From contig JARGOG010000003.1 in assembly GCA_029212785.1 (NCBI GenBank), forward strand, positions 33,305 to 97,304: a DNA stretch of 64,000 nt, written 5' to 3'. This DNA is from Thalassobaculaceae bacterium (GTDB lineage Bacteria; Pseudomonadota; Alphaproteobacteria; Thalassobaculales; Thalassobaculaceae). Each line of letters opens with the position of its first letter. The stretch's first letter is position 1. Shown in pieces: positions 34,921 to 37,784 of the stretch. A model generated the notes under the pieces. The model worked only from the letters and a program-made list of their open reading frames with translations. It had not been told where the DNA came from and ran no database searches. The translations under genes and the position numbers were made by a program.

Positions 34921-35325
34921 ATGATCGGCCGATTGAACCATGTCGCCATCGCCGTCCCTGACCTGGAGGCGGCGACGGCGACGTACCGGGATACGCTGGG
35001 GGCGGCGGTGTCGATGCCCATGGATCTGCCGGAGCACGGCGTCACCGTGGTCTTCGTCGAGCTGCCCAATACCAAGATCGAATTGCTGTACCCGCTCGGC
35101 GACGGCTCGCCGATTGCCGGGTTCCTGGAAAAGAACACATCCGGCGGTATTCACCACATCTGTTACGAGGTCGACGACATCCTCGCCGCCCGCGAACGGC
35201 TGAAGGCGCAGGGCGCGCGGGTGCTCGGCGACGGAGAGCCGAAGACCGGCGCCCACGGCAAACCGGTCCTGTTCCTGCACCCCAAGGACTTCGCGGGCAC
35301 CCTGGTCGAACTCGAGCAGGTCTGA
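34921..35325 (+). CDS. mce: methylmalonyl-CoA epimerase
   Basis: IGRLNHVAIAVPDLEAATATYRDTLGA, GGIHHICYEVDDI, VELEQV glyoxalase fold. Confidence 0.92.
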   Translation: MIGRLNHVAIAVPDLEAATATYRDTLGAAVSMPMDLPEHGVTVVFVELPNTKIELLYPLGDGSPIAGFLEKNTSGGIHHICYEVDDILAARERLKAQGARVLGDGEPKTGAHGKPVLFLHPKDFAGTLVELEQV

Positions 35326-35345: not shown

Positions 35346-35597
35346 ATGGATCTGGTCTCGGGAATCGTCGTCTACGTCCTGCTCTGGTGGTGGATGCTGT
35401 TCATGGCGCTGCCGTTCGGCGTGCACCGTGACGAGGAGGTGCAGGCCGGCAATGATGCCGGCGCGCCGAAAACGCCCATGCTTGCGCGCAAACTGATTGC
35501 CGCCACGGTAATCGCCGCGGTGCTCTGGTTGGTGATCGATCAGATCATCCGGTCGGATCTGATCTCGTTCCGCGAGATGATTCGGGATTGGATGTAG
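35346..35597 (+). CDS. DUF1467 family membrane protein
   Basis: MDLVSGIVVYVLLWWWMLFMALPFGVHRDEE; follows mce as commonly in alphaproteobacteria. Confidence 0.8.
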   Translation: MDLVSGIVVYVLLWWWMLFMALPFGVHRDEEVQAGNDAGAPKTPMLARKLIAATVIAAVLWLVIDQIIRSDLISFREMIRDWM

Positions 35598-35740
35598 CCG
35601 GTCGGCGCTGGTGACGGCAGGCCGTGTGTTGCGGTGCACAATCCAGCATCAGACGGCAGCATCCAAATTGCTCAATTGCACAAAAAATGCACACACTGTT
35701 GTATTTTGCCAAAAAAAAGAGCGGCTGAGGCGATAAAGCC

Positions 35741-35769
35741 TTGCCACTCCCTTTGCTGAGTCCTATTTT
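35741..35769 (+). promoter_or_regulatory. sigma70-type promoter for small RNA
   Basis: TTGCCA (35741-35746), 17 nt spacer, TATTTT (35764-35769); predicted +1 near 35776. Confidence 0.6.
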
Positions 35770-35775
35770 CTGATT

Positions 35776-35860
35776 GTGATCGTTGGCGATCACATACGCC
35801 TGATGGCGTTTCCTCCCTAAACTCGGGCCGTGCCGGCTTTGCCGGTGCGGTCTTTTCTTT
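35776..35860 (+). ncRNA. candidate trans-acting small RNA, MmgR/suhB (alpha-r8) family-like
   Basis: stem-loops GTGATCG-TTGG-CGATCAC and ACGCC-TGAT-GGCGT, single-stranded TTTCCTCCCT, then CCGTGCCGGC-TTT-GCCGGTGCGG stem with TCTTTTCTTT; promoter immediately upstream; no ORF. Confidence 0.72.
35828..35860 (+). terminator. intrinsic terminator of the small RNA
   Basis: CCGTGCCGGC TTT GCCGGTGCGG (10 pairs, 2 G-U) followed by TCTTTTCTTT. Confidence 0.8.
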
Positions 35861-35981
35861 GCCCGCGAAAGATAGGGGATTGGGCTGCGCGCGTCGACCA
35901 AAAAATCGCGCTCCGGACAATTTTTGAACATCTTCGCATCCTAACGAGTATGTTTGTATCTCACTAACAGGAGGAACGGTT

Positions 35982-36446
35982 ATGAGCGTGCGCCGCTTTC
36001 CGATCCGAAAGTTGTCGAAGGGTGGGTTTGGCGCCTTTGCCGTCGCGACGATCCTGTTCTCGATCGGTGCCGTAGGCGATTCGCCGGCATGGGCCTCGAC
36101 CATCACGGTGAAGGCGTCCGACTGCCAGCGCCTGGTCCGCCATCAGCCGAGCGCCGATGTCGCTTACAAGCCGGGCGTGGACGTGAACGGCAATCCGGTC
36201 GCACCGGCCGATCTGCCGGGATCGGTCACGGTCAAGACGCCGACCGAGGTCACCTTCGACGTCACGTATGATCTGCTTTCCAACTACGGTGTCCCGTCGG
36301 ACAACGCGCTGACCCCGCAAGGGGAGGCTACCGTCGGCACGGTGAAGTACGACATTCTGTCCGGTGCGCTGACCTTCAACGGCGAGCGTCTCGACGATGC
36401 GGAAACGACGGCATTGTCCGAGCTCTGCAAGGCGGCGGCGCAGTAG
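35982..36446 (+). CDS. hypothetical secreted protein
   Basis: AGGAGG ribosome binding site, signal peptide-like N-terminus ending AWASTITV, compact 154 aa. Confidence 0.7.
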   Translation: MSVRRFPIRKLSKGGFGAFAVATILFSIGAVGDSPAWASTITVKASDCQRLVRHQPSADVAYKPGVDVNGNPVAPADLPGSVTVKTPTEVTFDVTYDLLSNYGVPSDNALTPQGEATVGTVKYDILSGALTFNGERLDDAETTALSELCKAAAQ

Positions 36447-36471
36447 TCCGCCCACCGCAGATCCGCACCAC

Positions 36472-36498
36472 AAAAAAATCCCGGAACGCGCCCGGGAT
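36472..36498 (-). terminator. minus-strand intrinsic terminator downstream of gcdH
   Basis: minus strand reads ATCCCGG GCGCGTT CCGGGAT TTTTTTG. Confidence 0.75.
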
Positions 36499-36511
36499 CG
36501 AAACTTGCGGC

Positions 36512-36554: not shown

Positions 36555-37784
36555 TTAGCTGGTGAAGGCCTGAATCCCGGTCTGGGCACGGCCCAGGATC
36601 AGGGCGTGGACGTCGTGCGTACCCTCGTAAGTGTTTACCGCTTCGAGGTTCAGCACGTGACGGATCACGCCGTACTCATCCGAAATGCCGTTGCCGCCAT
36701 GCATGTCGCGGGCGGCCCGGGCGATGTCGAGCGCCTTGCCGCACGAGTTGCGTTTGGCCAGCGAGATCGCCTCCGGTGCGCCCCGGCCCTGGTCCAACAG
36801 TTGACCGAGACGCAGGCAGGTCTGCAAACCAATGGTGATCTCGGTCTGCATGTCGGCGAGTTTCTTCTGAATCAACTGGTTGGCGGCCAGCGGCCGTCCG
36901 AACTGCGTGCGCTCCATCGTGTAGTCGCGGGCGGCATGCCAGCATGCTTCGGCCGCGCCGAGCGCGCCCCAGGAGATACCGTAGCGCGCCTTGTTCAGGC
37001 AGCCGAACGGGCCGCCGAGGCCGGAGATGTTCGGCAGTAGGTTTTCCTCCGGCACGAAGACACCGTCCATGACGATCTCGCCGGTGACCGAGGCCCGCAG
37101 GCTGAACTTGCCCTCGATCTTCGGCGCGGAAAGACCGTCCATGCCTTTCTCGAGGATGAAGCCGCGGATCTTGCCGTCCTCGGTCTTGCCCCAGACCACG
37201 AACACGTCGGCGATCGGCGAGTTGGTGATCCACATCTTCGCGCCGGACAGCTTGTAGCCACCATCGACCGCAACCGCGCGGGTCTTCATGCCGCCCGGAT
37301 CGGATCCGTGGTCCGGCTCGGTCAGACCGAAGCAACCGACCCACTCGCCGCTGGCGAGCTTCGGCAGGTATTTCTTGCGCTGCGCCTCGGAGCCGTAGGC
37401 ATAGATCGGGTGCATGACCAGGCTGGACTGGACGCTCATCGCCGAGCGGTAGCCGGAATCGACACGCTCCACCTCGCGGGCGATCAGCCCGTAGCAGACG
37501 TGGTTCACGCCGGCGCCGCCGTATTCTTCCGGAATGGTCGCGCCAAGCAGGCCGAGCGCGCCCATCTCGGTCATGATGTCCCGGTCGAAGATCTCGTGGC
37601 GGAAGCCCTCGTGCACGCGCGGCAGGAGTTGTTCCTGGCAGTAGTCGCGCGCAGCGTCTCGGATCATCCGCTCTTCTTCGGTAAGCTGCTCGTCGAGCAG
37701 CAGCGGATCATCCCAGGCGAATTCGGGACGCTTCTTTGCTTCGGGCGCCGGCTTATCTGTGGCGGCGGCGACGGGCGGTGCCAT
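36555..37784 (-). CDS. gcdH: acyl-CoA dehydrogenase, glutaryl-CoA dehydrogenase-like
   Basis: [87 protein letters not shown]. Confidence 0.9.

Follow-up and report, generated by a model that had tools for sequence, protein, structure and literature searches.

An alpha-R8 small RNA gene of a Thalassobaculaceae bacterium and its putative cis-encoded antisense partner

The 64,000-nucleotide stretch of DNA analysed here (the window) contains, between genes, a forward-strand unit composed of a promoter, a small RNA (sRNA), the 10-mer UUUCCUCCCU and an intrinsic terminator, and its sequence identifies this unit as a divergent member of the alpha-R8 (Rfam RF00519, suhB/MmgR) sRNA family. The family match is accompanied by a conserved structure, by conserved promoters and terminators on both strands, and by complementarity between the two units. 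We consider it likely that the locus encodes two opposed small RNAs, a trans-acting, anti-Shine-Dalgarno alpha-R8 sRNA and a dedicated cis-encoded antisense antagonist, which probably switches the sRNA off.

The unit lies downstream of genes for a glyoxalase-family protein, likely a methylmalonyl-CoA epimerase (34921-35325, + strand; Pfam Glyoxalase_4), and a DUF1467 protein (35346-35597, +; PF07330), and is followed by a gene for a secreted-type protein of 154 aa with no Pfam match (35982-36446, +). A consensus scan placed the promoter at 35741-35769 (+), with a -35 box TTGCCA (35741-35746) and a -10 box TATTTT (35764-35769) separated by 17 nt. The sRNA of ~85 nt, with predicted ends at about 35776 and 35860 (+), is supported by the RF00519 match, the fold and the orthologs. 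It opens with hairpin 1 (GTGATCG-TTGG-CGATCAC, 35776-35793), followed by hairpin 2 (ACGCC-TGAT-GGCGT, 35796-35809). The unpaired 10-mer, the family-defining motif and putative anti-Shine-Dalgarno seed (PMC12559287), reads TTTCCTCCCT at 35809-35818, between hairpin 2 and the intrinsic terminator (35825-35860), which was found by consensus scan and fold and consists of a GC-rich stem (35825-35853) and a T-rich tail. Elsewhere in the neighbourhood, a minus-strand hairpin (CGATCCCGGGCGCGTTCCGGGATT) with a T-run is present at 36470-36500, just past an acyl-CoA dehydrogenase gene (36555-37784), and the transcript of that gene probably ends there, short of the sRNA locus.

All of these forward-strand elements, from the promoter to the T-rich tail, are where the earlier note had placed them, and its description of a complete sRNA unit is borne out for this strand; it overlooked a unit with promoter and terminator on the minus strand that overlaps the sRNA completely. 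It was also right that no open reading frame explains the unit. Two minus-strand ORFs of 128 and 144 aa cross the locus, and a protein-coding reading was rejected, as neither matches a Pfam family and both are broken up in relatives. Taken alone, the consensus matches on the forward strand carry little weight, because the numbers of sites found are close to those expected (1 promoter-like site versus 0.4, and 1 terminator-like site versus 0.9). The predicted fold of the sRNA is far more stable than that of shuffled sequences (-41.2 kcal/mol versus -24.1 +/- 3.0; z -5.8) and leaves the 10-mer unpaired.

The RF00519 model is matched over its full length (positions 1-77) at 35791-35867 with 37.4 bits (E 2.7e-6 in a permissive cmscan of 401 nt, or 4e-4 when computed over 62 kb), under the gathering score of 41 bits. 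This shortfall causes the window sRNA to be overlooked by annotation based on the cut-off, and an Rfam scan at the gathering threshold returned only tRNAs. The curated cut-off is a rule for annotation rather than a biological feature, and homology is well supported despite the lower score. Other Rfam matches near the locus were all far below their own cut-offs and were set aside. Members of the family have an unpaired 10-mer after a weak hairpin, then a Rho-independent terminator (PMC12559287), and the window locus has all three in this order. Orthologs from many genera share the 10-mer with it, as well as the terminator and the two 5′ hairpins. The assignment to the alpha-r8/MmgR (suhB) family made in the earlier note thus stands, as do the covariance-model match and the stem covariation in relatives that it had proposed as checks; a distinct subfamily, and a second, canonical copy in the genome, had escaped it. 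Control of PHB storage, in the literature examined, is reported for S. meliloti MmgR only and is not a general feature of the family.

Orthologs across the class, found with a model built from relatives (R1), fall into two groups, which we call type A and type B, the latter comprising the canonical copies. The window copy is type A, a sequence of roughly CGCCTGRTGGCG[AT]TTCCTCCCTAAACTYGGGCC plus a 5′ hairpin of changing sequence. Type A spans at least 10 alphaproteobacterial families, and genes for methylmalonyl-CoA epimerase and DUF1467 are upstream in most of the loci; a homolog of the secreted-type protein is downstream in many, though not all. Against the Rfam cut-off of 41, 18 of 20 type A loci score too low, and all 14 type B loci score above it.

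The genome of the window carries one copy of each type. Its type B copy (G000:C145:23432-23520; L041, L053) scores 46.6 bits and has a promoter-like upstream region, a divergent gene resembling fatty-acid desaturases and no antisense unit. Three further RF00519 matches in this genome (27-31 bits) were taken as chance, the 10-mer being absent from those contigs. Elsewhere, three tandem matches of 60-67 bits, ~230-285 nt apart, are present in L101 (1493-2090). Two genomes placed in the genus of the window, G001 and G005, are single contigs of ~1.5 Mb, compared with 4.7-5.6 Mb in congeners, and have no alpha-R8 match, a pattern suggestive of reduced genomes that have lost the alpha-R8 sRNAs. The type A locus of L121, labelled as an Anaerolineae bacterium MAG, is nearly identical to that of the alphaproteobacterial L091, and the contig is probably misbinned.

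Type A loci were compared for each part of the sRNA unit. The promoter was examined in 33 loci: TTGCC is nearly invariant, and 27 loci have A as the second letter of a -10 box spaced by 17 nt, with T as its last letter in 26. Hairpin 1 occupies the same place across lineages and, although its sequence varies by lineage, has z < -1.5 in 53 of 57 loci (mean z -3.2), while hairpin 2 is near-invariant. TTCCTCCCT is present in all loci used, with a mean predicted unpaired probability of 0.86. The terminator folds more stably on the forward than on the minus strand in 34 of 35 loci, owing to G-U pairs.

Alignment of the orthologs brought the minus-strand unit to light: a conserved promoter lies just beyond the sRNA terminator, and just upstream of the sRNA is a hairpin whose T-run is on the minus strand. 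In the window, the sigma70-type promoter, recognised by conservation, occupies 35869-35897 (-), with a -35 box TCGACG (35897-35892) and a -10 box TATCTT (35874-35869) spaced by 17 nt. The terminator (35711-35750, -; -21.7 kcal/mol) consists of a hairpin at ~35750-35719 and a T8 run at 35718-35711. With the start set 7 nt past the -10 box, these conserved signals predict an antisense RNA of ~152 nt (35711-35862, -) that spans the entire sRNA; lengths predicted in relatives are mostly 153-174 nt. The two units are interlocked. The antisense promoter sits just beyond the sRNA terminator, the antisense start lies at the end of that terminator, and the sRNA -35 box TTGCCA falls within the antisense terminator stem, which may account for part of the conservation of TTGCC.

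A strict minus-strand motif, RTGAC-N17/18-TANNNT, is present at 25 of 35 non-redundant type A loci, compared with 0.04 expected from shuffles. The same motif is found at none of the 35 on the forward strand of the region and at none of 21 type B loci. Most type A loci without it, including those of the window's genus, read TCGAC, and the relaxed form GAC-N18/19-TANNNT is present at 33 of 35. In an aligned subset, GAC and TA show no variation and the last T shows almost none; the spacer is close to random, most of its columns carrying little information. A promoter for the downstream gene was rejected as the source of the motif, given the 0/35 on the forward strand and a downstream gene that is not constant. 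Counts for type A loci overstate independence, as the loci share kinship. The strict motif was defined after the first loci had been viewed; it was checked against shuffles, the opposite strand, type B loci and later loci. Among loci from two later searches that were not used in its definition, the hairpin is retained by the type A loci of every genus but one, and the promoter by all of these except L147. Each of ten families (f1, f16, f34, f38, f48, f53, f80, f103, f123 and f133) has the minus promoter at one locus or more.

For the terminator, a threshold of -8 kcal/mol was abandoned for stricter ones because 65% of type A shuffles passed it. At -15 kcal/mol the hairpin and T-run are found at 30 of 35 type A loci, versus 8.6% of shuffles, and at 1 of 21 type B loci. 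The inner pairs covary: 83% are standard pairs, whereas 2000 shuffles averaged 53% and never exceeded 64%. The hairpin energy favours the minus strand mainly in the window's own family. Promoter and terminator tend to be retained or lost as a pair: both occur at 40 loci and neither at 12, whereas 2 loci have the terminator alone and 3 the promoter alone. The Fisher value for this distribution, 5e-8, is no true probability, the loci being related and a single genus supplying 11 of the 12 that lack both. This genus, g59 of family f48 (L137-L152), has kept the type A sRNA and lost both antisense elements, so the antisense unit is dispensable there, and the loss offers a natural experiment on its role.

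These patterns bear on whether an antisense RNA exists at all. The sRNA might act alone, the minus-strand signals being binding sites or chance promoter and terminator look-alikes that yield no stable RNA. The sRNA persists in genus g59 without these elements, and the TTGCC arm of the minus-strand hairpin doubles as the forward -35 box, both of which would suit such an account. We nevertheless regard it as unlikely, since promoter letters are fixed around a random spacer of fixed length, the covarying hairpin is followed by a T-run on the same strand, and the elements are jointly kept or lost and are absent at type B loci.

The favoured reading, that of two opposed RNAs, would have them face each other across the same ~150 bp. 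The exposed UUUCCUCCCU of the sRNA would pair, with the help of Hfq, to ribosome-binding sites and block translation of nutrient-uptake and catabolic mRNAs. We infer that both RNAs are made and that the antisense RNA would counter the sRNA by forming a duplex with it, leading to sequestration, RNase III decay or both. It may also act by transcriptional interference, which is expected because each promoter overlaps or abuts the terminator of the other unit. The locus has the sequence features of a mutually cis-encoded pair, with promoter and terminator signals on each strand and one RNA fully overlapped by the other. Predicted duplexes of the antisense are perfect with the sRNA and strong with the type B sibling, and the antisense carries the anti-seed AGGGAGGAAA, exposed only in part in predictions.

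Two further accounts give the antisense a different role. Minus-strand transcription might act solely in cis on the DNA by disturbing the sRNA promoter, its RNA having no function. The position of the sRNA -35 box in the antisense terminator stem and of the antisense start at the sRNA terminator end would permit this, and RyeA transcription disturbs the sdsR promoter in E. coli (PMC6610125). In SdsR/RyeA and CJnc190/CJnc180, however, the RNAs themselves also act on each other, and with full complementarity a duplex would be hard to avoid, which makes a purely cis effect improbable. More doubtful still is a main regulator on the minus strand, a G/A-rich trans-acting RNA with targets of its own that lies opposite the sRNA by chance. 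Its conserved promoter and terminator are consistent with this, but its inner sequence is the mere complement of an alpha-R8 sRNA with a conserved seed and a strand-directed forward terminator, and type B loci have the same core without an antisense. The findings on the alpha-R8 10-mer and CrfA, together with the CJnc190/CJnc180 and SdsR/RyeA precedents, are the reasons for preferring a repressor that acts in trans and has a dedicated antagonist encoded in cis.

In the 4.9 Mb genome there are nine occurrences of the 10-mer: one in each of the two alpha-R8 genes, five as the complement of AGGGAGGAAA just before an ATG, and two elsewhere. The five genes (L166, L168, L171, L179 and L180), whose ribosome-binding sites perfectly complement the sRNA 10-mer, are candidate targets. 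They encode a GFO/IDH/MocA oxidoreductase, a CobA/CobO/BtuR corrinoid adenosyltransferase, an acyl-CoA dehydrogenase, a Peripla_BP_6 protein and a DctP solute-binding protein, a set that fits nutrient control as a lead only. Solute-binding proteins make up 5 of 20 candidates and none of the 10 controls, which have a different strong Shine-Dalgarno sequence; these numbers are too few to claim enrichment.

A broader and more tentative proposal, which we think possible but rather less than even in its chances, is that throughout the type A subfamily an anciently conserved antisense gene silences the sRNA in cis and acts in trans as a sponge for the canonical sibling, the whole making up a reciprocal switch for carbon and nutrient use. 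If so, CrfA of Caulobacter would meet the same need by an independent route. The alpha-R8 sRNAs are a widespread alphaproteobacterial family for which this counter-regulator has only lately been shown, in Caulobacter, and an antisense conserved in 10 or more families would add a second way of controlling it, encoded in cis. The locus would be a deeply conserved small RNA gene with an antisense gene of its own, and few such pairs have been characterised. The Rfam cut-off conceals the whole subfamily, so annotation and target studies may undercount alpha-R8 genes. No report of an antisense partner of alpha-R8 was found in the open-access literature searched, and the main text of a paper on Azospirillum brasilense sRNAs offered no usable entry for this locus; type A or its antisense may have been described elsewhere.

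The window sRNA resembles the known alpha-R8 sRNAs (MmgR of S. meliloti; SisA-D of C. crescentus) in its single-stranded 10-mer after a hairpin, its Rho-independent terminator, its length of about 80 nt and its occurrence in Alphaproteobacteria. It differs from them in scoring below the Rfam cut-off, in a strong extra 5′ hairpin, in adjoining the methylmalonyl-CoA epimerase and DUF1467 genes and in bearing an antisense unit; the most frequent alpha-R8 site is beside an N-formylglutamate amidohydrolase gene (PMC12559287). CJnc190/CJnc180 of Campylobacter jejuni is an experimental precedent for a cis-encoded pair (PMC8687705), but its sequences and phylum are unrelated, and the antagonism shown in Campylobacter is predicted at the window locus. 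The enterobacterial SdsR/RyeA (RyeB/SraC) are likewise mutually cis-encoded sRNAs, subject to mutual degradation and transcriptional interference (PMC6610125). Their sequences are also unrelated, and the toxin/antitoxin effect described there is not implied here. In Caulobacter crescentus, the alpha-R8 seed acts as a repressor at the ribosome-binding sites of mRNAs, and the sponge CrfA blocks alpha-R8 through a G/A-rich segment that pairs with the 10-mer (PMC12559287). CrfA uses a short site to pair with four sRNAs located at different places in the genome, whereas the predicted antisense RNA of the window is fully complementary to its partner and is encoded opposite it.
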